Positions 4,799 to 19,457 of a stretch of 64,000 nt of DNA are shown here, piece after piece. How positions within the stretch are numbered: position 1 is the stretch's first letter; every line of letters begins with the position of its first letter. The position numbers and the translations under genes are program-made. The notes under the pieces were generated by a model. It worked only from the letters and a program-made list of their open reading frames with translations. It did no database searches and was not told the DNA's origin. This DNA comes from Oceanimonas pelagia (GTDB taxonomy: Bacteria; Pseudomonadota; Gammaproteobacteria; Enterobacterales; Aeromonadaceae), in the NCBI RefSeq assembly GCF_030849025.1, contig NZ_CP118224.1, forward strand, positions 542,001 to 606,000. The letters run 5' to 3'.

Positions 4799-7633
4799 AT
4801 GAAGGGACCAATGGTAATGGTGCTGCTCGGCGGCCTACTGTTGTCGGTGTCGGGCACCGGGCTGGCAGCCTTGTTTAGCCTTGAAACGGTCGTCTGGCCG
4901 GCTTCCGCTCTGGCGTTGTATGGCCTGATGGCAGGGGGCAGGCGCCTGCCGTTGTGGCTGACCTTGAGCGCCGGCCTTTGGCTGGGCCGTTTTTTGACGG
5001 CGGGCACGCCGCCCGGTGTACCCGCCATGTGGTTGGCGGGGGGAGGGGCTCTCGGGGCCATGCTGGCGGCGACCATGGCCGCCGCCAGCCTGCGAAAGGC
5101 GGGAGAAGTGAGGCGGCGGCAACACATGCGTACGGCCCTGCTGAAAGCCTTGCTGGTGATCCCCCTGGGCTGTGCCCTGGCCGCCAGTCTGGGGCTGGCA
5201 GGACTGCACCTGCAGCCGGCGCAGCCCGCCGAGGCCATGACGGATCTCTGGCTGCTCTGGTGGACGACCGATACCCTGGGAGTACTGGTGGTTGCTCCCT
5301 TTGTGCTGCCTCCCGCATACCGGATTTCAGCGGCAGAAAAAAGCGAGGTGCGGATCCTGCAATGGCTGCCCCTGTTGTTGCTGGGCATGATCATGTTGTT
5401 GCTCACCGGCGGCGAGTTGATGGCCCGCCCTGCTTTTTCCCCCGTGCTCTGGCTCGGTCTGGGCTGCATGTTGGTGATGTTGTCGACGGTATGGTTTGTG
5501 CTGGCCAGCATGCAGCAGCATGTACGTTTGCTGCACCTGCGCCGCAGCGGCCTGCGGGCGGCAAAACGAAAAAAACAGCGCCTGCGGCAGCTGCATCAGG
5601 AGCTTGACCAGCGCGTGGCCAGGCGCACCCTGGAGCTGCAACGGGCAACCGAGCAGGCGGAGTCTGCCAATCGCTCCAAATCCCACTTCCTGGCCAGCAT
5701 GAGTCATGAGATCCGTACGCCTCTCAATGGAGTGGTAGGCATGCTGGACGTGCTGGCCTGCACCGGACTGACTGCCGATCAGCGGGAGATGCTGCAGGTG
5801 ATCAGGTTTTCTGCCAACAGCCTGGCGGAGCTGACCAGCGATATTCTGCTGCTGTCCCGTATTGAGGCGGGCAAGCTGGAAATAGCGTCCGCGCCACTGT
5901 CGATCACCCAGGTGGTGGAGCAGACCTGTTTGCTGCAACAACAGCAGGCGGAGCAACAGGGCGTGGAGCTTCGGGTGTTTGTGGATCCTGCCATTCCAGA
6001 GCAGGTGTGCGGCGACCGGTTGAGGATCTGCCAGATCCTCACCAATTTGCTGAGCAATGCCATCAAATTTTCCAGCGGCAGCGCCTCGGGCCGTGTGTCC
6101 TTACGGGCCACCCTGTCTGCCCGGCGAAAAGACAGGGCCCTGCTTAATCTGGAGGTCAGCGACAACGGCATAGGAGTGGATGAAAGCTTCAAGGAAAACA
6201 TTTTCGATTATTTCGCCCGCCAGGATGAAACAAGCATCGGCCAGTTTCAGGGCAGCGGTCTGGGGCTGGCCATCACTCATCATTTGATCAGGCTGCTGGG
6301 TGGCGCCATTTTTCTGCGCAGCCGCTCGGGGGAGGGCAGTTGTTTTACCGTGGTATTGCCGGTGGGGCTGAGCGGAACGGCACCGCCGGCCATTCCGTTG
6401 CTGAAAGGTCTGTCCTGTCTGGTGATCGGGGGCAATGACGGTGTGGAGCATGAGCTGTTTCATTACCTTAGGCATGCCGGGGCCGAGGTGCTGTTTGCCC
6501 GTAATTTGAATGAGGCGGTGGCCATGACCGGCCTGCTGCCGGCCGGCCCTTGCGTCTGGGTCCATGACTCGGGCAGGCGGCATGCGGATCTGGCAATGAT
6601 CCGGCGCCATGTCGCCCGCTGGCAGGGCCCGGTTCGCCTGCTGGTGCTGGAGCGGGGTAACCGGCGGCGGGTACGGCAATGCGGCGATAACGCCTTTATG
6701 CTGGATGCCAATGTGCTCGGCTGTGCGGCCCTGGTCGAGGCCGTGGCGGTCGCCGCCGGCCATGCGCCGCCGGTGTCGGGGCTGGCCGGCCAGGTGCAAG
6801 ACCGGCAGCACGTTCCGCCGGCAAGGCGCCACTGCCGGGTTCTGGTGGCGGAGGATAACGACGTCAACCAAAAGGTGATAGCCCGTCAGCTGGACGTGCT
6901 GGGGGTCAGTGCCGAGATTGCCGCCAACGGCAGCGAGGCTCTGGCCCTGTTTGACCAGGAACGCTTTGATTTGGTGTTTACCGATATTCGCATGCCACAC
7001 ATGAACGGATATCAGCTGACCCGTCGTATTCGGGCGAGCGGCAGCAATATTCCCGTGATAGCCCTGACCGGCAACGGCTTCAGAGAGGACATTGAAAACA
7101 TGTACAGTGCCGGACTCAGCGACTGCCTGATCAAACCGGTTCATCTGCCGCAATTGCAGGCCATGCTCGACAAATGGCTGCCGCTGCCGGCAGCGCAGGC
7201 GGACCAGAGCGTGCCGTCCGAAGAGGGTGAAGCAGGCAGCGACACCATCAGGCTGTCCGTGCTGGAAGAGCTGACCGGAGGGGATGCAAAGCTGCAAAGC
7301 GAGCTGATAGGGGATTACCTCGGCCAGCTGGAGGCAATACACCGAAAGTTGCAGGTGGCCATTGGTCAGAAAAATGGCAACGCCGTTGAGCGTCATCTGC
7401 ATTCGTTAAAGTCCTCATCCCGGGCCGTGGGGGCCAACAGGCTGGGGGAGCTGTGCCAGCTCCTGGAGCGCGCCTGTCATAAGGGCAGGGACTGCTGGCA
7501 AATGAGGGAGTGGTCGGACTACGAAAACGAACGGCAACGGGTGCAGCGCGTTCTTGAGCAATACCGGAGCCCGGCAGGGCGGCTGAAGATGACTCAAGGG
7601 GAGCGTCATACGACCCATGCGGGCAACGGCTGA
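4799..7633 (+). CDS. Membrane hybrid sensor histidine kinase (MASE1-like, HisKA, HATPase, degenerate REC, REC, Hpt)
   Basis: A 944-residue unorthodox phosphorelay kinase. Residues 1-245 are hydrophobic helices resembling MASE1. A charged coiled coil leads to HisKA with H303 in [10 protein letters not shown], then the ATPase with DNGIGV and [11 protein letters not shown]. Residues ~530-650 look like a receiver that has lost its acidic pair (CLVIGGN where VVDDD is expected). A canonical receiver follows (AEDN, D729 in [12 protein letters not shown] in CLIKPV), then Hpt with H868 in [19 protein letters not shown] precedes the ATG. The partner double-receiver gene starts 13 bases after the stop. 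The same architecture recurs in the kinase at 10.3-14.4 kb. The signal is unknown. Confidence 0.9.
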
Positions 7634-7646
7634 GGGAGATCGGAAT

Positions 7647-8780
7647 ATGCACAGAGAACTTAATGGCACCCTGTTTCTGGCCGCCAACAACACCAGCACA
7701 GTGGAGTCGGTCAGCGCGCTTCTTCGGGGAGCGGTGAGCCGGGTGATTATTCCCGACATTTCCGCCGACATGGTCAGGGCCTTTGACGATAGCGAAGCAA
7801 AGGTGATTGTATTTGCCTTCAACGAGGTGGAGCAGGCGGTGGAGCTCAACGAACGGCTGCGTCAGCAGAGCCAAAGGCTGCATAGCCGGCCCTGCCGGTT
7901 GCTGGTGCTGTGTGACAAGTTTGAAGTGGAGCGCGCCTTTGACCTCTGCTGCAAGGGGGTGTTTGACAACTACATCGTCTTCTGGCCCATGGCCTATGAT
8001 CCGCACCGGCTGAAAATGTCCATCCTGCAGGAGTTTCGCGAGCTCGACAAACTGGAACGCACTCGAAACAGGGTAAAAAAGCTGGCGGATCTTCACAAGG
8101 CGGTCACCGCGCTGGAGGCCATCATGGCCCGGCAGCTGGAAGGTGGCCACGCGCTGACCGATACGGTGAAATCGGTGCTGGCGCTGAAATATGAGCAGAC
8201 GGCCCAGGCCGGGCCGCTCCGTGACACTGACCGCGACCACCGGGAAGGCGCCGGCATTGAGGCTCTGTATCAGCGTCTGGAAAATCTGGGGCGCATGGCG
8301 AGCAGCTTTGAGGCCCTTTCCCGGAAAAACTGTCAGTCCTCCAAAGCGGCCCTCAGCGATATTAAAACCTTCAGGGGAACCATACTGGTGGTGGAGGATG
8401 ATGCCTTTCACCGCAACCTGATGGTGGCCCTGCTGAGTGCCGGCGGTTATCAGGTGCTGGTGGCGCCCTCGGCGGAAGAGGCCCTGCTGCTGTTGCAGGA
8501 AACAACCCCGGATCTGGTGCTGATGGATATCAACATGCCGGGCATGAGCGGGCTGGATGCCATCAGGATCATGCGCCAGAACGACTGGAGCAGGCATGTT
8601 CCCGTTATCGTGATCAGCGGAAACAACGAAAAGGACGTTATCGTGGAGAGCGTCCAGCTGGGCGCCTCCACTTTTATCGTCAAGCCCTTCAGCCGGCAGG
8701 TGCTGCTGAACAAGGTTCAGGCGGTGCTCCACTCCACCAGACCGGCCGCTCCCCGGGAGGTGCCCTGGAACATGATGTAA
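7647..8780 (+). CDS. Response regulator with N-terminal degenerate receiver-like domain, coiled coil and C-terminal receiver
   Basis: A 377-residue soluble protein with no DNA-binding or enzymatic output. Residues 1-130 look like a receiver fold without a phospho-acceptor motif and contain FDNYIVFWPMAYDP. Residues ~130-235 are charged and helical (probable coiled coil), and ~244-372 are a canonical receiver with VVEDD, D294 in LMDINMPGMSG, and K in FIVKPFS. ATG 7647 has a GAGGGA ribosome site; an earlier in-frame ATG at 7617 overlaps the kinase and has none. It is the likely phospho-acceptor of the Hpt domain encoded just upstream. A paralogue of the same layout lies at 15634-16740. Confidence 0.8.
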   Translation: MHRELNGTLFLAANNTSTVESVSALLRGAVSRVIIPDISADMVRAFDDSEAKVIVFAFNEVEQAVELNERLRQQSQRLHSRPCRLLVLCDKFEVERAFDLCCKGVFDNYIVFWPMAYDPHRLKMSILQEFRELDKLERTRNRVKKLADLHKAVTALEAIMARQLEGGHALTDTVKSVLALKYEQTAQAGPLRDTDRDHREGAGIEALYQRLENLGRMASSFEALSRKNCQSSKAALSDIKTFRGTILVVEDDAFHRNLMVALLSAGGYQVLVAPSAEEALLLLQETTPDLVLMDINMPGMSGLDAIRIMRQNDWSRHVPVIVISGNNEKDVIVESVQLGASTFIVKPFSRQVLLNKVQAVLHSTRPAAPREVPWNMM

Positions 8781-8786
8781 CGCCGG

Positions 8787-9917
8787 TTACAGCCAGAATC
8801 CCAGCAGCATAAAGGCCGGGATCAGGACCAGCAGCGGACAGCGAAATACCCGCAGGGCCAGCAGTCCCAGTGCCGCGGCGGCCAGCGCCGGGGCACCGGT
8901 GATGCTGGCCACAAATACCGGCTGATACAGGGCCGCCAGCAGCAAGCCCACCACAGACGCATTCACTCCGGCAATGGCCCCGGCCATGCGCGGGTTTGAG
9001 GCCAGCGTCTGCCAGCCGTTCAGCAATGCCAGCACCAGCAAGAAGCCCGGCAGAAACACGCCAAAGGTGGCCACCAGTGCGCCGGTCAGGGGGCTCGCCG
9101 GCAACAGCTCGGCCCCGAGAAAGGCCGCCAGGCTGAACATGGGACCGGGCATGGCCTGGGCGGCGGCGTAGCCGGTGAGAAACGCCTCGCTCGACAGCTC
9201 GTCCGCCAGCAGGTTCTGCAGCAGAGGCAGCACCACATGGCCGCCGCCAAATACCAGGCTGCCGGCCTGGTAGAAGTCGGCAAAGAGCCTGGCAGAAGCC
9301 GTGTTCGTCACCAGCGGCAGCAGCAGGAACAGGCCGGCAAACAGCAGCAGAAAGGGCCAGTTAAGCACAGGAGAATGCCCGGGCTCGCCCTTGCCCCGGC
9401 GCAGCCAAAGGGCGCCGATCAGCGCCGCTGTCAGCAGCGCCGCAAACTGGGCGGCCAGCCCCGGCCACAGCCACTGCCCGGCGGCGGTGGCTACCGCCAA
9501 GGTGAGCGGCAGGCGCTGGCGGCAGAACTGGCCGGCCATGGTCAGCACGGCGTCGGCCACCACCACCAGCGCAAACAGCTTGAGACCGCTCACCACTGCC
9601 AGGGTGATGGCCGAGCCGGCGTATTGCCGGCCCAGCAGCGCCAGGGCCAGCATCAGCACAAAGGACGGCAGGGTAAAGCCCACAAAGGCGGCGATGGCAC
9701 CGCCCAGGCCGGCGCGCTGGTAACCGATGGCAAACCCCAGCTGGCTGGAAGCCGGACCCGGCAAAAACTGGCACAGCGCCAGGGTGGCGGCAAAGCGCTC
9801 CTGAGGCAACCAGCCCAGCTTTTGCACGAAATGACGCTGAAAATAACCGATATGGGCGGCCGGTCCGCCAAAACTGACCCAGCCCAGCATAAAAAATTGC
9901 CAGAATACCGAAAGCAT
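8787..9917 (-). CDS. chrA: Chromate transporter, ChrA family
   Basis: A 376-residue multi-helix inner-membrane protein of the CHR family, which exports chromate by ion exchange. The N-terminal half has the family signature (FFMLGWVSFGGPAAHIGYFQ and LCQFLPGPASSQLGFAIGY), and the second half repeats it (VFGGGHVVLPLL, AMPGPMFSLAAFLG), as expected for the fused two-domain type. ATG 9917 gives the normal N-terminus; the frame is open further upstream, but that part is not family-like. It is the only minus-strand gene in the signalling block, ends six bases from the first response regulator, and diverges from the second kinase. Confidence 0.9.
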   Translation of the reverse strand: MLSVFWQFFMLGWVSFGGPAAHIGYFQRHFVQKLGWLPQERFAATLALCQFLPGPASSQLGFAIGYQRAGLGGAIAAFVGFTLPSFVLMLALALLGRQYAGSAITLAVVSGLKLFALVVVADAVLTMAGQFCRQRLPLTLAVATAAGQWLWPGLAAQFAALLTAALIGALWLRRGKGEPGHSPVLNWPFLLLFAGLFLLLPLVTNTASARLFADFYQAGSLVFGGGHVVLPLLQNLLADELSSEAFLTGYAAAQAMPGPMFSLAAFLGAELLPASPLTGALVATFGVFLPGFLLVLALLNGWQTLASNPRMAGAIAGVNASVVGLLLAALYQPVFVASITGAPALAAAALGLLALRVFRCPLLVLIPAFMLLGFWL

Positions 9918-10273
9918 GATGAGTAACTGTGTCTGAAAAGAGGAATGCCGATAATGCCACAGCTCTCCCGAACGTTTAACCGTATATGTCGGAGGCTGGA
10001 AGCAGACATTTTTTATTGTGCGGCATACTTTTGTGAACCGGTGAGTATACATATCTCCGGTTTGTAGGTAGTAAGACTATCCTTGGTGAGACCTGCCATA
10101 TCAGGGGGGATTGCAGCATGTCTCTGGCTGGTATAAATACCGATTGTTTTTGACATTCTTGTAACACTGTTGATACTCATTTAAGATCAAAGTCGTATGG
10201 TGGCGGGTCTGTCAGGCGTTCATGCCGCATTATCAAGGGACGGTTTCCCATTCAATCTGGCCCGGGTCAGGAT
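9918..10273. other. Divergent intergenic region between chrA and the second kinase
   Basis: This AT-richer 356-bp region has no convincing gene on either strand. It contains the probable promoter of the second kinase (10150-10177). On the chrA side the ribosome site before ATG 9917 is weak. No clear operator was found. Confidence 0.5.
10150..10177 (+). promoter_or_regulatory. Sigma70-type promoter upstream of the second kinase
   Basis: A perfect -35 TTGACA (10150-10155), a 16-bp spacer and GATACT (10172-10177) as -10. The first coding ATG of the kinase is about 100 bases downstream, which leaves a leader. Confidence 0.55.
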
Positions 10274-10900
10274 ATGTTCTCAAAGTGGTGGCCCATTGTG
10301 TTTTGGTCGGTTCAAAAAAACCTTCGCTCAGAACAACGCCTGGCGTCGGGAATTACGCAGCAGTCATGGCTAAGAGCAGTGCTGTTGTTTGGCGGGTATT
10401 TTGCCCTTGCCGAGCTGGGTATGTGGCTGGCGGTGCCGCCCTTTTACAGTGCCCCCATCTGGCCGGCAACGGGACTTGCCGTGTACTGCCTGAGCTTGTG
10501 GGGGCGGCGATATTGTTACGTGATCTGGCTGGCGGCCTGGTCGGCAGACATGTTGCACAAAACCTGGATTACCGGGCATGCTGCCGAGCCGGAACTGTTG
10601 TTGGTTACAGGTGCCACTGCACTCGGCTCCCTGCTGATGGCTCTGGTCAGCGTTATCTTGCTGCAGCCATTGATGCTGGAGCGCACCAGGCGTCTGGGAG
10701 AAGGCCGTATTATCTGGCGGTTGTTTCTGGCGGTGCCGGTGGCTGCGGCTCTGTCGGCCACTCCGGGCATTGTCAGTTTGCAGTGGTATCAGCCCCAGTC
10801 TGAAGGGGTTCTGATCGGTAACTGGCTGACCTTGGATGTCGGAATGTCTGGCGTTGTTTGCGGTCGTGCCCTTTATTCACAACGCCAGTATCACGGGTAA
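10274..10900 (+). CDS. MASE1-like membrane domain, N-terminal fragment of the split hybrid kinase
   Basis: A 208-residue mostly hydrophobic product with MASE1 character (PIWPATGLAVYCLSLWGRR, then several helices). It resembles the N-terminus of the kinase at 4.8 kb. The last expected helix is out of frame here: the frame reads NWLTLDVG and then loses family character. One base removed at about 10841-10845 would join it as DVG-CLALFAVVPFI to the next frame. It therefore looks like the front of the adjacent kinase, cut by a +1 frameshift (mutation or sequence error). It could still be made as a separate membrane piece, since the downstream ATG at 10836 overlaps it. Confidence 0.6.
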   Translation: MFSKWWPIVFWSVQKNLRSEQRLASGITQQSWLRAVLLFGGYFALAELGMWLAVPPFYSAPIWPATGLAVYCLSLWGRRYCYVIWLAAWSADMLHKTWITGHAAEPELLLVTGATALGSLLMALVSVILLQPLMLERTRRLGEGRIIWRLFLAVPVAAALSATPGIVSLQWYQPQSEGVLIGNWLTLDVGMSGVVCGRALYSQRQYHG

Positions 10901-13900
10901 CCGAAAACGTCGTTTTGACAGCCTCAGGCTCAGGTTGCTGCCGCTGGTGGTCGGCTTGCTGCTGGTGGTGGCGAACATCAGCCTGGCCAGGGCCGAAAAG
11001 TCGGAAAGTGATCAACAGTTTTCCATGTTGAGTGATTTGTTGCATGAGCACTTTGAAAGCGCCCTGTTGTCGCTGGACGAAATCATCAAGGCGCTCGCCG
11101 CTTTTATGCTCAGCAGTCATAAGGTGGAGCCGGCAGAATTTGATTACTATGCCCGGCGCCTGCTGAATAAAGAGGGCATAGAAGGGCTGGCCTGGATCCC
11201 TCGGGTTTCTGCTGCTGAGCGTGCCCGTTTTGAGGGCGAAGCGGGAATTGCCATTCGTGAGCAGGATGGGCGGGGCGGCCTGCAATATGCCGGCTCCAGA
11301 GCGATGTATTATCCCTTTGCCTTGATGGTTGTTCCTCGCGGCCGCCTTCCCATGGCTGGCTTTGATTTGGGCAGCACCGAACAGGCTGCCGCACTGGAGC
11401 AGGCCATTGCCAGCGGCAGGACTGTGTTGCTGCGGCGCAGTGCCATTCATGCCGAAGAGCCCGAAAGACCCGATGACTGGCGTTATCTGATGCCGGTCTA
11501 TATGCCCGGTTTTAATGCCGAGCAGGCTTCGCCTCAGGAAAGGCAAGGTTCTTTTCTTGGCTTTGCCAGCGTGCTGATCTATTTCGACGAGCTGGCCAAA
11601 GCGTTGGCGCACAGCATGGAAGCCCGTGGCGTTAGCGTGTGCGTGACCATGACCGCACACGATGGCACGGATCCCGTGACCATTCTGGATAACCGCGGTC
11701 CGGCGCAAAAAAACAGGGCGCCCGACTGGTTTAATCACCCGGAATATCTTGCCGACAGAACCTTTTTGATGAAAAGCTGGTCTGTGAGTCCCTGGCAGCC
11801 GGCCCAGTCACTTTTTATGCAACTCTGGATGCTGGGCGGAATGGTACTGATGCTGCTGGTGACCTCCTATGTCGTCAATACCCAGCTCCATAATGTGCGC
11901 ACAGTGCAACGAATTGCCAGGCGCACCGAAGCCTTGAAAAAAACCAGAATGGAGCTGGCCGGCATTCTGGACAGCCTGACCAATTACATTGTTGAAGTTG
12001 ACGCCGCCGGCCGTGTTACCAAGGTCAACCAGTCACTGCTCAATGACTATGGGGGACACAAACAGCAACTGCTGGGGCGGCAGATTACCGATATCCCCTG
12101 GCTGCAGAACCTGCCGGCCGCCAGGCAACAGTTGAAACGGGATCTTAACAGGGCCTGGCAAGGTCTTCGTACACGAAGGGATTTCATGCTTTACCGACAA
12201 TCCCGCCAGCCGTTTTTTGTGGATGTAAACGTGATCCCGATTTCCGGTGGTCGGGGGGAAGTGGAAAAGGTGATCATTTCCGCCATTGATATCACCGAAC
12301 GCAAAACCGCAGAAGATAATCTGAAAAAAAGCGGCCAGATGCTGTTGGCCATGAACCAGTCGCTGGAAGGCCTGGTAGACGAACGTACTCAGGAGCTGAA
12401 AGCCCTGACAGGGCAACTCGAAGACAGGGTCAGGGAGCGAACTGCCGAGTTGGTGCAGGCCAGACAGGAAGCCGAGCGGGCCAATCAGTCCAAGTCCTAT
12501 TTTCTGGCCACCATGAGCCATGAGATTAGAACGCCGCTCAATGGCGTGATCGGCATGCTGGATGTGATGGCCAGGACCGATCTGACCCGCCGGCAACAAG
12601 AGATCCTGGATATCATTCAGTATTCCGCCCTGTCGCTGAAAGAGCTGATCAATGCGATTCTGGAGTTTTCCAAAATCGAGTCCGGCAAGGTGGAGCTGGA
12701 AAAAACGCCCTTTGATATCATTCACATGATTGAACAAACCTGTGTGGCGCTGGATCAGCAGGCCAGTGCCCAGGGGGTGGAGCTCATGCTGTTTGTGGAT
12801 CCCTCACTGCCCGAGCGGGTGATTTCCGACAGCCTGCGTTTGCGACAGATCCTGCTTAATCTGGTCAGCAATGCCATCAAGTTCAGCAGTATCAGGAAGC
12901 CGGGCAAGGTTTCGGTACGGGCCAGCCTGTCGGACAACGGCCGTTCGTCCATCGTGGTCCAGTTTGAGGTGGCCGACAATGGCGTGGGTATGAGCCAGGA
13001 GGCCATTGCCAGTATTTTCGAGGCCTTTACCCAGGCCGACTCGGGCACTACCCGTCGCTTTGGCGGCACCGGACTGGGGCTGACCATCAGTCATCATTTG
13101 ATCACCCTGCTGAACGGTGATATTCAGGTGCAGAGCGAGCCCGAACGGGGCAGTTGCTTTACGGTGACGCTGCCGTTCGAGCTTGAGCATGAATATAGCC
13201 CCAGCCCCCGGTACGACACTCGGCTCGACGGGCTGGGTTGCCTGGTGATTGGTGGCAATCAGGGGGTATCTGAAGATCTGCTGTGTTACCTCAGGCATGA
13301 ACGGGCGCGAGTGCATTTTGCCCCCGATATCGAGTCTGCCCGCCAACTGCGTGACCTCTATCCAGAAGGGCGCTGTATCTGGATTTATGATGCCACCCGC
13401 CAGAGATTTCCTGTGGCGCAGCTCAGGCAGGCGGCAGCGGCATGGCCCGAGCACAGGGTAAGTTTTGTTACGCTGGAGCGCGGTGCTCGCCGGCGTGCGA
13501 GAAAGGTGGCCGATGATCATGTGATGCTCGATGCCAATGTGCTCAGAAGGGCGGCCTTTATTGAAGCCGTGGCCGGAGCCGCCGGCTATGTTGAGCTGCC
13601 CGACAAACAGGCCCTGATGGCCCGGGCGAAGGCCAGGGAAACACTGGCGCCGCGGCCGGGGGCGCGCATTCTGGTGGCCGAAGACAATGTGGTGAATCAA
13701 AAGGTCATTTGGCAACAGCTGGCGCTCTTGGGTTATGAGGCCGATATGGCCGACAATGGGGCCGTCGCTCTCGCGCTTTACCGGCAGCATCATTATGATC
13801 TGCTGCTTACCGATCTCAACATGCCGGAAATGGACGGTTATCAACTGACCAGAAGGCTGCGTCAGGAGGATGGCAGCCAGGCATCCATTCCCATCATTGC

Positions 13901-14405
13901 CCTCACGGCCAATGCCTTCAAGGAAGACATGGCCCGCTGCCTGGAAGCGGGAATGAATGATTACCTGAGCAAACCGGTAGAGCTGGAGAAACTGAAGGAG
14001 ATGCTTGGCCGCTGGCTATCGGCGCCACTGTCTTCACCGGCAATGACAAAAACTCAGTCTGAGCCGGTAAACGAGCCGGTAGATGCCGGTGTTCTCAGAG
14101 AACTGGTGGGGGGTGATGAAGCACTGTGCGCAGAATTACTGCAAGACTATCAACAGCAGCTGGAGCGGCAGATACGGGAAGTGCGCGAGGCCGCTGATAT
14201 CGGTGATATAAAGCGTCTGGAAGAACTCGTACACAGCATGAAGTCCTCTTCCCGCTCGGTGGGGGCCCTGGCGCTTGGCGACGTGTGCCATCAAGTGGAA
14301 GTGACCTGTCATACTGATCCGCAGCAATTATCCCGGAACCGTGTGCAACGGCTGGAAATGGAAGCCGCACGAGTGATCGAATTTCTGAAACTTAATAAAA
14401 AATAA
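10836..14405 (+). CDS. Hybrid sensor histidine kinase (CHASE, PAS, HisKA, HATPase, degenerate REC, REC, Hpt), probably missing its in-frame MASE1 front
   Basis: An 1189-residue product. A helix at ~33-50 is followed by a periplasmic CHASE domain (~55-310, with YYPFALMVVP and GFDLGSTEQAAAL), a second helix (~324-348), PAS (~371-485) and a coiled coil. Then come HisKA with H562 in [10 protein letters not shown], the ATPase (DNGVGM, GTGLGLTISHH), a degenerate receiver (CLVIGGN), a true receiver with D993 in LTDLNMPEMDG, and Hpt with H1133 in VHSMKSSSRSVGA. ATG 10836 is simply the first in this frame and has no good ribosome site, which supports the view that the native protein starts at 10274 and a frameshift separates the parts. 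It is followed by REC-EAL and double-receiver genes. Confidence 0.8.
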   Translation: MSECLALFAVVPFIHNASITGNRKRRFDSLRLRLLPLVVGLLLVVANISLARAEKSESDQQFSMLSDLLHEHFESALLSLDEIIKALAAFMLSSHKVEPAEFDYYARRLLNKEGIEGLAWIPRVSAAERARFEGEAGIAIREQDGRGGLQYAGSRAMYYPFALMVVPRGRLPMAGFDLGSTEQAAALEQAIASGRTVLLRRSAIHAEEPERPDDWRYLMPVYMPGFNAEQASPQERQGSFLGFASVLIYFDELAKALAHSMEARGVSVCVTMTAHDGTDPVTILDNRGPAQKNRAPDWFNHPEYLADRTFLMKSWSVSPWQPAQSLFMQLWMLGGMVLMLLVTSYVVNTQLHNVRTVQRIARRTEALKKTRMELAGILDSLTNYIVEVDAAGRVTKVNQSLLNDYGGHKQQLLGRQITDIPWLQNLPAARQQLKRDLNRAWQGLRTRRDFMLYRQSRQPFFVDVNVIPISGGRGEVEKVIISAIDITERKTAEDNLKKSGQMLLAMNQSLEGLVDERTQELKALTGQLEDRVRERTAELVQARQEAERANQSKSYFLATMSHEIRTPLNGVIGMLDVMARTDLTRRQQEILDIIQYSALSLKELINAILEFSKIESGKVELEKTPFDIIHMIEQTCVALDQQASAQGVELMLFVDPSLPERVISDSLRLRQILLNLVSNAIKFSSIRKPGKVSVRASLSDNGRSSIVVQFEVADNGVGMSQEAIASIFEAFTQADSGTTRRFGGTGLGLTISHHLITLLNGDIQVQSEPERGSCFTVTLPFELEHEYSPSPRYDTRLDGLGCLVIGGNQGVSEDLLCYLRHERARVHFAPDIESARQLRDLYPEGRCIWIYDATRQRFPVAQLRQAAAAWPEHRVSFVTLERGARRRARKVADDHVMLDANVLRRAAFIEAVAGAAGYVELPDKQALMARAKARETLAPRPGARILVAEDNVVNQKVIWQQLALLGYEADMADNGAVALALYRQHHYDLLLTDLNMPEMDGYQLTRRLRQEDGSQASIPIIALTANAFKEDMARCLEAGMNDYLSKPVELEKLKEMLGRWLSAPLSSPAMTKTQSEPVNEPVDAGVLRELVGGDEALCAELLQDYQQQLERQIREVREAADIGDIKRLEELVHSMKSSSRSVGALALGDVCHQVEVTCHTDPQQLSRNRVQRLEMEAARVIEFLKLNKK

Positions 14406-14422
14406 TCACGGGGCAGACTGTT

Positions 14423-15613
14423 ATGGACATATTGGTTGTCGACGATGATGTGGTGTCACTCAAGCTGTTAATTCATCATTTAAAAAAGCTGGGTTTTTCG
14501 AATGTCAGGGGCGTCGAAAGTGCAACGGATGCCCTGCGGTTGATAAAGGATGAGAACCATGTTCCCGATCTGGTTTTTCTGGATATCAACATGCCTGGCA
14601 TGGACGGACTGGCCCTGATCAGAGAGCTGGAAAACATGCAGTTCAATGGTGATTTGGTATTGGTCAGTGGCCAGGACAAGAAAATACTGCACTCTTCCAT
14701 TGAGTTATCCAGAGCGTGCAAAGTCAACCTGGTAGGGCATATAGAAAAACCGGCCACTCAGTCCAGTCTGGCCGAGCTGTTTGAACGACTTGATGACAAG
14801 GGCATTCAAGCCGGCCGCCATGAGTGGCAGCCTGCTGGTCGTGAGCTTGCTGCCGCCATTGAGCAGCGCGAGCTGGTTAACCACTACCAGCCCAAAATCT
14901 GTCTTGCCAGCGGCGCCGTAGCCGGGCTGGAGGCGCTGGTTCGGTGGCAGTACCCCGGGCTGGGGCTGATGGGGCCCGACCGGTTTATTGGAGCGGCAGA
15001 GCATTATGGCCATATTGATGCGCTTACTCACTTGGTTGTGGAAAATGCTCTGCGGGATTGCCGAGCCTGCTTGCAGGCTGAGGAGCCATTGTCGGTGTCG
15101 ATCAATATATCCATGCTGAGCCTGTCATCGCCCGAGGTAATGACGGGCCTTTACCATCTGGTGCTGGAGCATGGTGTTTCTCCTCGTCGGATCACCTTTG
15201 AGGTCACGGAAAGCCACGTGCTGAATGACAGGCGTCAGCCTCTGGAAATACTGACACGATTAAAAATGCTGGGGTTTGGTCTGTCCATCGATGATTATGG
15301 GACAGGATATTCCAGCCTACGTCAGCTAAGGGACTATCCCTTTGATGAATTGAAGCTGGATCGTTCATTTATTGATGGCATCAGTGAAAGCGTGTCAAAA
15401 CGTAATATATATAACTCTACCGTTGCCATGGCCAAAGACCTTGGTATGACTGTCGTGGCCGAAGGGGTGGAGAACATTGATGATTTGAATTTACTGAAAA
15501 GCACTGGTTGCAATTTTGCCCAGGGGTTTCTGCTGGCAAGGCCCATGCCAATAGAGACGGTACTTGAGTGGCTTCCAAGGAATGAGCACCCTGTTATTGC
15601 GGTAAAAATATGA
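14423..15613 (+). CDS. Response regulator with EAL c-di-GMP phosphodiesterase output
   Basis: A 396-residue cytosolic REC-EAL protein. The receiver has VVDDD and D54 in FLDINMPGMDG. The EAL domain begins near residue 138 with E170 in EALVRW, and keeps FEVTES, IDDYGTGYSSL, KLDRSFI and VAEGVE, so hydrolysis of c-di-GMP to pGpG is expected. It starts 17 bases after the second kinase stop with a GGGGCAG-type ribosome site, so it is likely co-transcribed and phosphorylated from that kinase's Hpt domain. The gene is less GC-rich than the kinase before it. This is the clearest output of the signalling block. Confidence 0.9.
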   Translation: MDILVVDDDVVSLKLLIHHLKKLGFSNVRGVESATDALRLIKDENHVPDLVFLDINMPGMDGLALIRELENMQFNGDLVLVSGQDKKILHSSIELSRACKVNLVGHIEKPATQSSLAELFERLDDKGIQAGRHEWQPAGRELAAAIEQRELVNHYQPKICLASGAVAGLEALVRWQYPGLGLMGPDRFIGAAEHYGHIDALTHLVVENALRDCRACLQAEEPLSVSINISMLSLSSPEVMTGLYHLVLEHGVSPRRITFEVTESHVLNDRRQPLEILTRLKMLGFGLSIDDYGTGYSSLRQLRDYPFDELKLDRSFIDGISESVSKRNIYNSTVAMAKDLGMTVVAEGVENIDDLNLLKSTGCNFAQGFLLARPMPIETVLEWLPRNEHPVIAVKI

Positions 15614-15633
15614 CTTTAAGGTGAAGGGTAGTG

Positions 15634-16740
15634 ATGGTTATCAAAGGAAGCGCCGACGTTTTTGTCGCTACGGGAAGCAACAGTACGGCAGAAATCATCA
15701 GTCAGATGCTGATACCTGAGTTTGAACGACTGATCATATGCACATCGACGGAGCATGTTGTCAAAGAATTTGATGCATCTGGTGCTTGTGTATTGGTGCT
15801 GGCATACAATGAGGTTGTTCAATCCGGCGAGGTATATGATTTGCTATGCCGTCACAGTAAAAAGATTAATCTTTTACCTCACAAGGCCCTGTTGTTATGC
15901 AATAAGCATGAGGCAAAAGTAGCCTATGACTATTGTCGCGACGGTAAGTTTGACAATTATGTGGTATTCTGGCCTCTTTCTTATGATCCGTTCCGTTTAT
16001 TGATGTCGATACATCAGGCATTGGTTGAACTGGACAAAATTCATCACTTGCGCGAAAAGGACAAGGTAACGCGCGAACAGCGAAATCACCTTGTTAATCT
16101 GGAAGCGCTGTTGGCCAGACAGTTGAAGGAAAGCAGTAACTTTACACTGCAGGTTAATCATGCTGTTGACCGGGTGGAAGGTTATATCAATGATACCTTC
16201 ATGGCCAAACACGGTGATGGTTGGCGGAAGTCGGTAGTTTTTGATCTCGAGCAACTGAGAGGGGGGATAAAAAGTATCAGAAAAGCCACCCGTGACTTTG
16301 ACTCATTTTCACATCAAAGTGACAGAACATCCCGACGTTTAAATAAAAAGAGAGGAGAAACTAAAGCCAGTATTCTGGTAGTGGAAGATGATGCCTTTCA
16401 ACGTAATCTGCTGGTCGCACTGCTTAGAAGTGATGACTATGATGTGCAGTTTTCCGCCAGCGGTGAAGAGGCCATTGGCATGTTACAGCATAGTACGCCG
16501 GATCTGATTCTAATGGATATCATGATGCCAGGCATTAATGGCATTGAAACCACCCGTCTGATAAAAACGTCTCCCCTGAGCAAGAATATTCCCATCATCA
16601 TTACGAGCGGGTATAACCAACGGGATGTCATTCTCGAATGCATCAACCTTGGTGCCTGCAGTTTTATCATCAAGCCCTTTAACCGACAGACGATTATCAA
16701 GAAAGTGGCAGCAGCTCTTGAGAGTAGCTCTTCAGTATGA
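15634..16740 (+). CDS. Second double-receiver response regulator (degenerate receiver-like domain, coiled coil, receiver)
   Basis: A 368-residue paralogue of the protein at 7647-8780 with the same order: a receiver-like N-terminus without an acceptor site (FDNYVVFWPLSYDP matches FDNYIVFWPMAYDP), a charged coiled coil, and a C-terminal receiver with VVEDD, D295 in LMDIMMPGING and K in FIIKPFN. ATG 15634 is preferred over GTG 15631 for its spacing from GAAGGG (15623-15628). It has no output domain. The gene is clearly more AT-rich than its neighbours, so the copies have diverged. It may act as a phosphate sink or as an adaptor for the REC-EAL protein. Confidence 0.8.
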   Translation: MVIKGSADVFVATGSNSTAEIISQMLIPEFERLIICTSTEHVVKEFDASGACVLVLAYNEVVQSGEVYDLLCRHSKKINLLPHKALLLCNKHEAKVAYDYCRDGKFDNYVVFWPLSYDPFRLLMSIHQALVELDKIHHLREKDKVTREQRNHLVNLEALLARQLKESSNFTLQVNHAVDRVEGYINDTFMAKHGDGWRKSVVFDLEQLRGGIKSIRKATRDFDSFSHQSDRTSRRLNKKRGETKASILVVEDDAFQRNLLVALLRSDDYDVQFSASGEEAIGMLQHSTPDLILMDIMMPGINGIETTRLIKTSPLSKNIPIIITSGYNQRDVILECINLGACSFIIKPFNRQTIIKKVAAALESSSSV

Positions 16741-16880
16741 CTTTCATTGATTCGACGGTCATGGCCATCTGAGCCAGTAGAGGCTGTTTGATGTGGATCA
16801 ACAAAAGTATCATTGTCCGCTGTGCCACGTGACACCCTCGGATATACTCGCGGCTTTGAAAACAGGGAGTGTTCCTCATC

Positions 16881-19457
16881 ATGGCCGGACGTCCGACCAC
16901 CATACGGCGGTATTTGCTTAACCGTACCCTGCTGTTTTCCGTTATCGGTTTTTTGCTGCTGCTGGTGGTAGCCAACCAGGCCTATCAGAGCAGTGTGCGG
17001 CAAAGCGCGCGCCAGGTGGCGGCCTCGGTGGCCCAGACTACCTTCAATTCCATGTATTCCATCATGAGCCAGGGCTGGAGCCGCAATCAGCTGGAAACCT
17101 TTTTGCAGCAGCTGGAGCAGGGCAACCGGGAGCAGGGCTTTCATATCGGCCTGTACCGGGGCGAGCTGGTGAGCGAGCGCTTTGGCGCCATCGAGCAGCG
17201 CCAGCCCGATGAGCCGCTGCTGGCTGCCGCCGCCAGCGGCGACATCAGCGCTCTGGATCTGGGAGAGCGGCTGCGCTACCTCTATCCGCTCAAGGCCCGG
17301 GCCGACTGCCTGGCCTGTCATTCCAATGCCGCGGTGGGGGATACCCTGGGTGTGATTACGGTGGAGCAGGATCTCTCCGGTCAGCTGAGCATGGCCAACC
17401 GCAACCTGCTTTATTACCTGTTGTGGTTATCACCGCTGCCGCTGCTGTTTGCCTTCTGGGCGGTGCGGCGGGTGAGCCTGCACATCAACGACTCGGTGCT
17501 GCACCTGTCCCGCAGCATTGACCAGGTGGAAAGTCTGTCCGACTTGTCGCGCATGGGCAGCGAGCGGCAGCCATTTCGTTTTATCGAGATGAACTCGATT
17601 TTCGGCCAGGTCGAACAGCTGGCCGACAAGCTGCGCAACATTGCGGTGGACAAGGATCTGCTGGAGTTTGAGATTCGGCTGCTGGAAAAATTCGTGATCA
17701 CCTCGGAAGTGGTGCGCGACTGGCGGGAATACGTCAATGTACTGATGCTCGACATCAATAAGGTGCTCGACATCTACACCATGTTTTCCATCTTCAAGGT
17801 GGACGACGAACTGTTCGATCTGGAAATCTTCTGGCTGCACACGCCCACACCGGCCACCCGCCACATGATGGAGCAGGCGGTATTGGCCAGGCTGCGCGGC
17901 AGCGAGACGCCCTTCAGCCATGGCGAATTTTCCGTGCATCACAATGTGGTCAAACACGATCATGATCATCTGCTGGAGCTCGACGAACGGGACATAGAGC
18001 TGCAGACCAAGTCGCTGCTGGTGGAAGCGCCCAAGATCGGTGGCATTGTCGGCATCGGAGTGCAGGCCGACATCGTCAAGGACAAGACCCGGGTACTGGT
18101 GCTGGAGAGCATTCTCTCCACCCTGCTCAACGTGGTGGGCTCGGTCAAGGCCATCTACAAGTACACTCGGGATCTGGAGTATTACGCCACTCGGGATCCG
18201 CTTACCAACCTCTACAACCAGCGCATGCTGTGGGAGCTGCTCGACTACGAGCTGGAGCGCAGCCGCCGGCACGACTACCCGGTGGCTATGCTGCTGCTCG
18301 ATCTCGACAACTTCAAGTCGATTAACGACGGCTACGGCCATGCCTGCGGTGACCTGCTGCTGACCGAACTGGCGGGGCTGCTCAAGGCGCAGCTCGGCAC
18401 CGGCGACGTGCTGGCCCGTTACGGCGGTGACGAGTTCGTGATCGTGCTTACCGAAGCGGGCATGGCGCGGGCCCGGGAAGCGGGCGAGCGTATTCTGGCG
18501 GCGGTAGACGGCTTTGCCATGGACCACGACGGCGGCCAGATCCGAGTCACCTGCTCTGTGGGTGTGGGCATTTACCCCGAACATGCGGCTAACGCCAAGG
18601 AGCTGTTTATGTTCGTCGACAACCTCATGTATCGCGCCAAGAGTCAGGGCAAGAACCGGGTCTGCCTGCCCGGCGAGCAGGATGTGGCCGACATTTTTCG
18701 GAACATGAGCGAAAAGACCCTGCTGGTGAATCAGGCCATTGAACAACGTACCCTGTTGCCGGTGTTCCAGCCCATACTGCCGCTGCAGAACGGCGCTCCC
18801 GTGGCGGTGGAAGTGCTGAGCCGCATTCGCCTGGCCGACGACAGCCTGATGAATGCCGGTGAGTTTATCGAGATCGCCGAGTCCATGGGCAAGGTGCACC
18901 TGCTCGACTACATCGTGATGGAAAAGGCCTTTGCCCAGGTGCGGGAGACCGGCTTTGACGGCCTGGTGTTTATCAATCTGTCGCCCCGGGCCGTGCTGGT
19001 GGGGGATTTTCTCATGCGCGTTCGCACCCTGGTGGCCGACTATGGCATTGATCCGGGGCGGGTGGTGTTCGAGATCACCGAGCGCGACACCATCAAGAGC
19101 ATGACGCTGCTGGAGCAGTTTGTTCGGGCCCTGAAGGATGCCGGCTTTTTGCTGGCAATCGACGACTTTGGCTCGGGGTTCTCGTCATTTCACTACCTCA
19201 AGCACCTGCCCATCGATTTTGTGAAAATCGAGGGCGAATTTATTGCCAACATGAGCCACGACAGCCGGGATCTGGCCTTTGTCAGCAGCATCACTCAGCT
19301 GGCCAAGCAACTGGGAGTGAAAACCGTGGCCGAATACGTGGAAAATGCGGAAGTTCTGGCCATGGTACGCGCCACCGGCATTGATCATGCCCAGGGTTAC
19401 CATGTGGGACGACCCCATCCGCAACTGAGCACCTGGCTGCACATGGCAGCGCTCTGA
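16881..19457 (+). CDS. Membrane GGDEF-EAL protein with periplasmic haem-c-type CxxCH sensor region
   Basis: An 858-residue c-di-GMP protein. The helix at ~14-36, a periplasmic part with C143-x-x-C146-H147 (CLACH) and the second helix (~176-195) fit a DUF3365/Tll0287-like sensor that could bind c-type haem. A GAF-like linker follows, then GGDEF with intact GGDEF at 515-519. The product-inhibition site RxxD is absent (GTGD there). The EAL domain has EVL from E644, with FEITERD, IDDFGSGFSSF and VAEYVEN retained, so either activity is possible. ATG 16881 follows GGGAG with an 11-base gap; GTG 16869 overlaps that site. It directly follows the phosphorelay genes. Confidence 0.85.
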   Translation: MAGRPTTIRRYLLNRTLLFSVIGFLLLLVVANQAYQSSVRQSARQVAASVAQTTFNSMYSIMSQGWSRNQLETFLQQLEQGNREQGFHIGLYRGELVSERFGAIEQRQPDEPLLAAAASGDISALDLGERLRYLYPLKARADCLACHSNAAVGDTLGVITVEQDLSGQLSMANRNLLYYLLWLSPLPLLFAFWAVRRVSLHINDSVLHLSRSIDQVESLSDLSRMGSERQPFRFIEMNSIFGQVEQLADKLRNIAVDKDLLEFEIRLLEKFVITSEVVRDWREYVNVLMLDINKVLDIYTMFSIFKVDDELFDLEIFWLHTPTPATRHMMEQAVLARLRGSETPFSHGEFSVHHNVVKHDHDHLLELDERDIELQTKSLLVEAPKIGGIVGIGVQADIVKDKTRVLVLESILSTLLNVVGSVKAIYKYTRDLEYYATRDPLTNLYNQRMLWELLDYELERSRRHDYPVAMLLLDLDNFKSINDGYGHACGDLLLTELAGLLKAQLGTGDVLARYGGDEFVIVLTEAGMARAREAGERILAAVDGFAMDHDGGQIRVTCSVGVGIYPEHAANAKELFMFVDNLMYRAKSQGKNRVCLPGEQDVADIFRNMSEKTLLVNQAIEQRTLLPVFQPILPLQNGAPVAVEVLSRIRLADDSLMNAGEFIEIAESMGKVHLLDYIVMEKAFAQVRETGFDGLVFINLSPRAVLVGDFLMRVRTLVADYGIDPGRVVFEITERDTIKSMTLLEQFVRALKDAGFLLAIDDFGSGFSSFHYLKHLPIDFVKIEGEFIANMSHDSRDLAFVSSITQLAKQLGVKTVAEYVENAEVLAMVRATGIDHAQGYHVGRPHPQLSTWLHMAAL

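Follow-up and report, generated by a model that had tools for sequence, protein, structure and literature searches.

This paper describes two phosphorelay sets in a 64,000-nucleotide stretch of the single-contig, 3.59-Mb genome of Oceanimonas pelagia (NZ_CP118224.1, positions 542,001 to 606,000), referred to below as the window. Each set contains an unorthodox histidine kinase (K1 and kinase 2) and a soluble partner protein (P1 and P2) that consists of a pseudo-receiver, a predicted helical linker and a live receiver (REC), and that carries no output domain. Such kinase-partner pairs recur, mostly in gammaproteobacterial genomes; comparison of the sequences reveals that the two proteins are linked and have co-diverged, and that the phospho-acceptor Asp of the partner has been lost only where no Hpt-bearing relay adjoins. 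The reading that we favour, and regard as rather probable, is that the partner is a phospho-acceptor of the relay that acts via protein contacts, beside a RocR-like phosphodiesterase of cyclic di-GMP (c-di-GMP).

The distribution of the partner was determined with a profile of its N-terminus, built from seven sequences, which found matches in 19 of the 345 genomes searched from the order, in 8 of the 369 from the class and in 9 of the 398 from the phylum sample, each count including the own genome. Within the family, a search with the P2 N-terminus matched 5 of 75 genomes, and one Nitrospirota metagenome-assembled genome also holds the partner N-terminus. Outside the genus, the order, class and phylum searches yielded 30 distinct places, of which 28 were fetched; in 25 of these 28 loci a frame with both pseudo-receiver and receiver was present (weakly in L156, at 21 bits). 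A hybrid kinase with HisKA, HATPase and receiver domains lay within the cluster, at most one gene off, for 21 of the 25 partners, and in 20 of those 21 clusters an Hpt domain was found, either as part of the kinase or encoded by a small neighbour gene (in L140 only at 15 bits). A REC-EAL gene was present in 8 of the 25 clusters. The kinase-partner association proposed in an earlier sequence-only reading of this DNA is thus borne out by the co-occurrence search, and the contrary idea, that partners lie mostly away from such kinases, fails. Moreover, when plasmids were searched with P2, 3833 records matched, of which only 4 covered at least 80% of the query in one place. Four of the best-ranked records were fetched, and all four carry a match to the partner profile with a hybrid kinase adjoining or one gene off. 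The gene order is kinase, REC-EAL and partner in Pseudoalteromonas sp. NC201; REC-EAL, kinase and partner in P. xiamenensis; REC and EAL in two frames, kinase, GAF protein and partner in Vibrio coralliilyticus; and kinase and partner in V. tritonius, where the partner match is weak (21 bits). The partner is annotated merely as 'response regulator' in three of these records, and the fourth has no annotation there.

Several matches were not counted as partners. Those in G720, G888, G842 and G892 are weak (E-values of 2e-4 to 1e-3): the G720 match falls within a kinase frame, which a REC-HD-GYP protein adjoins, no frame in G888 carries the partner domain, and G842 and G892 are the two places left unfetched. 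G268 holds a broken partner remnant, interrupted by one stop, that follows a kinase and a REC-EAL gene. An apparent REC-EAL-partner fusion in L158 (a 743-amino-acid frame) was rejected: the REC-EAL protein is encoded in its own overlapping frame (8868-10106), and the 743-residue frame, which has been extended too far at its start, contains no EAL according to Pfam. Among the other clusters, L144 has an EAL-HDOD gene adjoining its kinase. In L139 (4057-14590), one partner and one REC-EAL gene are flanked by a pair of hybrid kinases, one of which has its Hpt in a gene of its own, a second instance of regulators shared by two kinases.

The identity-distance matrices of kinases and partners are correlated (r 0.83, 27 pairs, permutation p 0.0002), and they remain so after removal of four near-duplicates (r 0.66, permutation p 0.0002). 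Clades common to both trees include L134-L136 with L138 and L139, and L140-L142 with L145-L147 and L149. At the level of sequence, this co-divergence shows a long-lived kinase-partner unit and does not show contact. The Asp of the C-terminal receiver is kept in 29 of the 32 partners compared, and in all 32 the dead receiver shares its chain with a second receiver. When partners are sorted by what adjoins them, all 26 with an Hpt-bearing relay next to them have retained the Asp, whereas 3 of the 6 others have lost it, namely L100, a lone partner, L143, with no kinase found adjoining, and L137, whose kinase has no Hpt. L100 (9822-10907) has Glu at the phospho-Asp position, and the kinase pseudo-receiver profile found nothing in its genome. 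L137 (8249-9817) and L143 (8213-9814) have an extra C-terminal hemerythrin domain along with the lost Asp, as if an iron or oxygen switch had taken the place of phosphorylation.

Output-less stand-alone receivers can serve as phosphate sinks, and retention of the Asp wherever an Hpt-bearing relay adjoins would equally suit a partner that takes the Hpt phosphate and, by hydrolysing it, sharpens or ends the signal in the manner of a phosphatase. Such a drain leaves both the conserved motif of the N-terminal pseudo-receiver and the hemerythrin domain added in two members unexplained, and we regard it as improbable.

P1 (7617..8780, plus strand, 387 amino acids) and P2 (15631..16740, plus strand, 369 amino acids, 17 bp past the REC-EAL gene) were assigned with Pfam and the family profile, and P2 also with a predicted model; P1 has a second in-frame Met at 7647, right past the stop of K1. 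The two proteins are 38-39% identical and are the only full-length ones among the 40 own-genome matches to P2. In both, the C-terminal receiver is the only domain above the Pfam cut-off; the first 160 residues gave no Pfam match above cut-off, and no helix-turn-helix (HTH) or tetratricopeptide repeat (TPR) match was found by Pfam. The predicted model gives the N-terminus a receiver fold, in keeping with the soluble, output-less protein of receiver-like part, linker and receiver that the sequence-only reading had described and for which it had suggested structure prediction. The coiled coil placed between the halves is upheld as far as long helices are predicted in P2 (119-163, 170-192 and 195-236), with low confidence from about 140 to 240. 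The reported FDNY-VFWP-YDP motif is present in both proteins as FDNY[IV]VFWP..YDP. The phospho-acceptor Asp is gone from the N-terminal domain, none of 30 partners being acidic at the two columns that end strand 3, and in the motif FDDYxVxxPLYD the aromatic residue is Y or F in 30 of 30 (Y in 28) and P is found in 29 of 30. A Cys ends strand 4, at the place of the usual receiver Thr or Ser, in 26 of 30 partners, and may have a function in redox or metal chemistry. A solved-structure search with the N-terminal profile found nothing convincing (best E-value 0.25), and PHROGs gave no useful match. PleD is the best solved sequence match to the live receiver of P2, one de novo design aside, and also ranks first in Foldseek when the entire P2 model is the query, with a low TM-score.

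K1 (4799..7633, plus strand, 944 amino acids) reads MASE1-HisKA-HATPase-pseudo-receiver-receiver-Hpt on basis of Pfam and the pseudo-receiver profile. Kinase 2 consists of a first part with about half of MASE1 (10274..10900, plus strand) and, in another frame, a remainder (10836..14405, plus strand, 1189 amino acids) that reads CHASE-PAS-HisKA-HATPase-pseudo-receiver-receiver-Hpt on basis of Pfam and own-genus homologues. Pfam matched HisKA, HATPase_c, Response_reg and Hpt in both kinases, and alignment identified the stretch without a Pfam model between HATPase and receiver as a degenerate receiver, which aligns across K1, kinase 2, three congeneric kinases and one Nitrospirota kinase. The earlier claim of one shared domain order from HisKA to Hpt, degenerate receiver included, therefore stands. 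The proposed difference in input, MASE1 alone versus MASE1-CHASE-PAS, is partly sustained: the matches are present, with MASE1 at 26.6 bits in K1 and 28.9 bits (E-value 8e-7) in kinase 2, under the 29.8 cut-off in both and just so in the latter, and kinase 2 is not one frame. By motif inspection, the HisKA His, the N and G boxes, the receiver Asp and the Hpt His are all readable in the relay, as are the active-site motifs of the REC-EAL protein and of both partner receivers, P1 having an intact Asp site.

The REC-EAL protein (14423..15613, plus strand, 396 amino acids, 17 bp past kinase 2) was assigned by Pfam as a RocR/PvrR-like c-di-GMP phosphodiesterase response regulator. RocR (3sy8) is its best solved match, co-linear over 2-384 (E-value 1e-56), and the EAL, NIS, DD, K, E and Q motif residues are readable; output via this protein, as earlier suggested, is plausible. 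No HTH match was found in it by Pfam, the EAL match ending at residue 374 of 396, and the PvrR model NF052596 of NCBIfam scored 269.8 bits, under its curated cut-off of 580.

According to the favoured reading, the phosphate of the kinase would travel from the HisKA histidine to the Asp of the kinase's own receiver, then to the Hpt histidine. The Hpt domain would next donate it to the partner's C-terminal receiver and, in set 2, to the RocR-like REC-EAL protein as well. Phosphorylation of the latter would change c-di-GMP breakdown and constitute the c-di-GMP arm of set 2, and the relay probably helps to steer c-di-GMP. The N-terminal receiver fold, not being phosphorylatable, would offer a docking or dimerisation surface, and phosphorylation of the C-terminal receiver would shift the packing of the two halves across the helical linker, as with the receiver and pseudo-receiver of PleD; the repacked partner would then bind the kinase, the REC-EAL protein or another target differently. 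Phosphotransfer, the in vivo c-di-GMP output, the action through protein contacts and the identity of the target are the parts of this scheme that we infer. Receiver helix 1 commonly contacts Hpt domains; it is identical at 13 of 19 positions between P1 and P2 and at 5 of 19 between the REC-EAL protein and either partner. Because helix 1 is so alike in P1 and P2, the two kinases could share partners. The partner might also be a PleD-like switch without an enzyme, in which its dead receiver or that of the kinase binds c-di-GMP as the ShkA pseudo-receiver does, such that the REC-EAL relay reads back its own messenger; we consider this unlikely, and if true, the partner would be a connector gated by c-di-GMP and phosphate and common to paired kinases.

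The main rival, which overlaps with the favoured reading, is a brake like VieB of the VieSAB system of V. cholerae, in which the partner binds the kinase and blocks both autophosphorylation and transfer to the REC-EAL protein, the block being relieved by phosphorylation of the receiver. The excerpts of PMC4352251 on which the comparison draws describe a kinase with histidine kinase, REC and Hpt domains, a REC-EAL protein and an HTH-less receiver protein in one putative operon, and report that VieB binds VieS and blocks transfer, with its Asp modulating this effect. The same three-gene logic applies here, the kinase with these domains and the REC-EAL gene lying in one cluster, and the linkage of the partner to the kinase (21/25) versus that to REC-EAL (8/25) also suits a protein that acts on the kinase. 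However, VieB, compared by its description only, has its receiver at the N-terminus, followed by TPR and a half without assigned role, whereas P1 and P2 start with the pseudo-receiver, end with the live receiver and have no TPR match. VieB is poorly phosphorylated by VieS (PMC4352251, excerpts); among the partners, by contrast, every one next to an Hpt-bearing relay has retained its Asp. In addition, many clusters hold kinase and partner only, in which case a relay with a braking partner would be without local target. Taken together, we hold the brake to be possible but doubtful. Further differences are that VieA carries an HTH, for which the REC-EAL protein of the window has no match, and that a pseudo-receiver-linker-receiver layout is not described in these excerpts of PMC4352251.

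As far as excerpts of the respective papers go, other known systems share parts of the arrangement. The Roc system of Pseudomonas aeruginosa has two paralogous unorthodox kinases that arose by duplication, the REC-EAL protein RocR and extra regulators (PMC12051241), but these extra regulators combine REC with a DNA-binding domain (GerE), in contrast to the output-less double-receiver proteins described here, which have no HTH match. Kinases with a pseudo-receiver between catalytic domain and receiver are widespread and include GacS/BarA (PMC7010744), in which the pseudo-receiver stands between the ATPase and the true receiver, followed by Hpt (PMC12148439, PMC7010744). BarA and TorS are the top two NCBIfam models for both window kinases, which nevertheless score 341.6 and 391.5 bits against the NF008318 cut-off of 890 and differ from BarA in their MASE1/CHASE input. 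PleD of Caulobacter (receiver-pseudo-receiver-GGDEF) likewise has one live and one dead receiver per chain, but the partner has the reverse order, a long helical linker between the two and no cyclase (PMC12632262). ShkA of Caulobacter has a pseudo-receiver inside a hybrid kinase that binds c-di-GMP (PMC7010744); no chain named ShkA occurs among the 8 solved-structure matches of the kinase pseudo-receiver profile (E-values up to 5), and a likeness is still possible. The statement that no named system has this layout was consequently too strong, the kinase having the GacS/BarA layout and the combination of kinase, REC-EAL and REC protein being that of VieSAB. Kinase layout and relay logic are already known, and what is unnamed is the partner family, on which no paper was recognised among literature entries judged mostly by title and start of the abstract.

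All six partners known from the genus group together in a single clade (100/99), in which P2, L097 and L098 are separated from P1, L099 and L100 (100/99 each). The six genus kinases of the locus likewise group as a single clade (100/100). Within it, K1 branches off outside the other five (fork 90/90), and L171 and L172, which are further hybrid kinases from the genus, do not belong to this clade. An old duplication with later losses fits these trees, because the partner tree splits into P1 and P2 branches and K1 lies outside the other kinases. Beside the same chromate transporter, G053 has kinase 2, REC-EAL, P2 and GGDEF-EAL; G052 has kinase 2, REC-EAL and P2; and G043 has a P1-type partner, kinase 2 and REC-EAL. 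In G058, the lone partner (L100) lies beside genes read as flagellar export and switch genes. The duplication proposed earlier is hence supported, but the sets have not been kept as two clean pairs (G043, G047, G058). From the gene orders, we infer that an ancestral tandem of K1-P1-K2-REC-EAL-P2 with differential losses would economically explain the variation in sets, of which horizontal exchange may also be a source. A congeneric 10-kb cluster (L171, 2-9990) contains three frames for kinases, of which two include a MASE1-like stretch, and a REC-EAL match in two pieces; a partner was not found there.

Several of the observations weigh against the favoured reading. Linked inheritance alone could also yield co-divergence. 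The p-value for the distribution of Asp losses (Fisher p 0.004) overstates it, with L137 and L143 as sister rows and L100 separate, which makes about two independent losses, and L152, L155 and L156 keep the Asp with no relay adjoining. Four partners (L143, L152, L155 and L156) have no detected kinase, L156 adjoining an Hpt-like frame, and 17 of the 25 partner clusters have no REC-EAL gene. In G047, kinase 2 and REC-EAL lie beside the chromate transporter and the partner was not found; therefore the partner is dispensable for that branch. Finally, kinase 2 of the window is split over two frames that overlap at 10836-10900, whereas it is one continuous frame of 1347-1490 amino acids in all four congeneric copies (L097, L098, L099 and L170). 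This difference, together with the partners missing or orphaned elsewhere in the genus, would agree with a decaying window copy in which kinase 2 is no full sensor after its frame change and set 2 is a relic. The 1189-amino-acid remainder of kinase 2, the REC-EAL gene and P2 are nevertheless open with intact active-site residues, and the single frame change may be a mutation or an assembly error; decay of the copy is therefore given little credence.

The sets are arranged in the order copper ATPase, PurT-like, K1, P1, chromate transporter (on the opposite strand), kinase 2 (two frames), REC-EAL, P2 and GGDEF-EAL, the names of flank genes being a reading of their sequences. The GGDEF-EAL protein (16869..19457, plus strand, by Pfam), 128 bp downstream of P2, possibly belongs to set 2, judging from its counterpart in G053, about 80% identical and in the same position. 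Its N-terminal sensor part has a CLACH motif, which reads like a c-type heme site, and a weak Tll0287-like match under the Pfam cut-off, and its GGDEF motif is intact. P2 is indeed AT-rich as noted earlier, with a G+C fraction of 0.445 versus 0.592 in P1 and 0.64-0.66 in the CopA, PurT, ChrA and CitE-like neighbours. The G+C fraction drops in steps from kinase 2 (0.566) via REC-EAL (0.509) to P2, most flanks being at about 0.65, and the same slope is present in L097 and L098, the two relatives with a P2-type partner.

Response regulators that lack an output domain are difficult to interpret, and the partners described here make up a recurrent family of them, ranging from Gammaproteobacteria to one Nitrospirota genome. 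The kinase-partner pairs, with their natural losses of the receiver Asp, provide a testable set for the role of pseudo-receivers. Moreover, the relay with its partner extends the VieSAB and Roc type of c-di-GMP relay.

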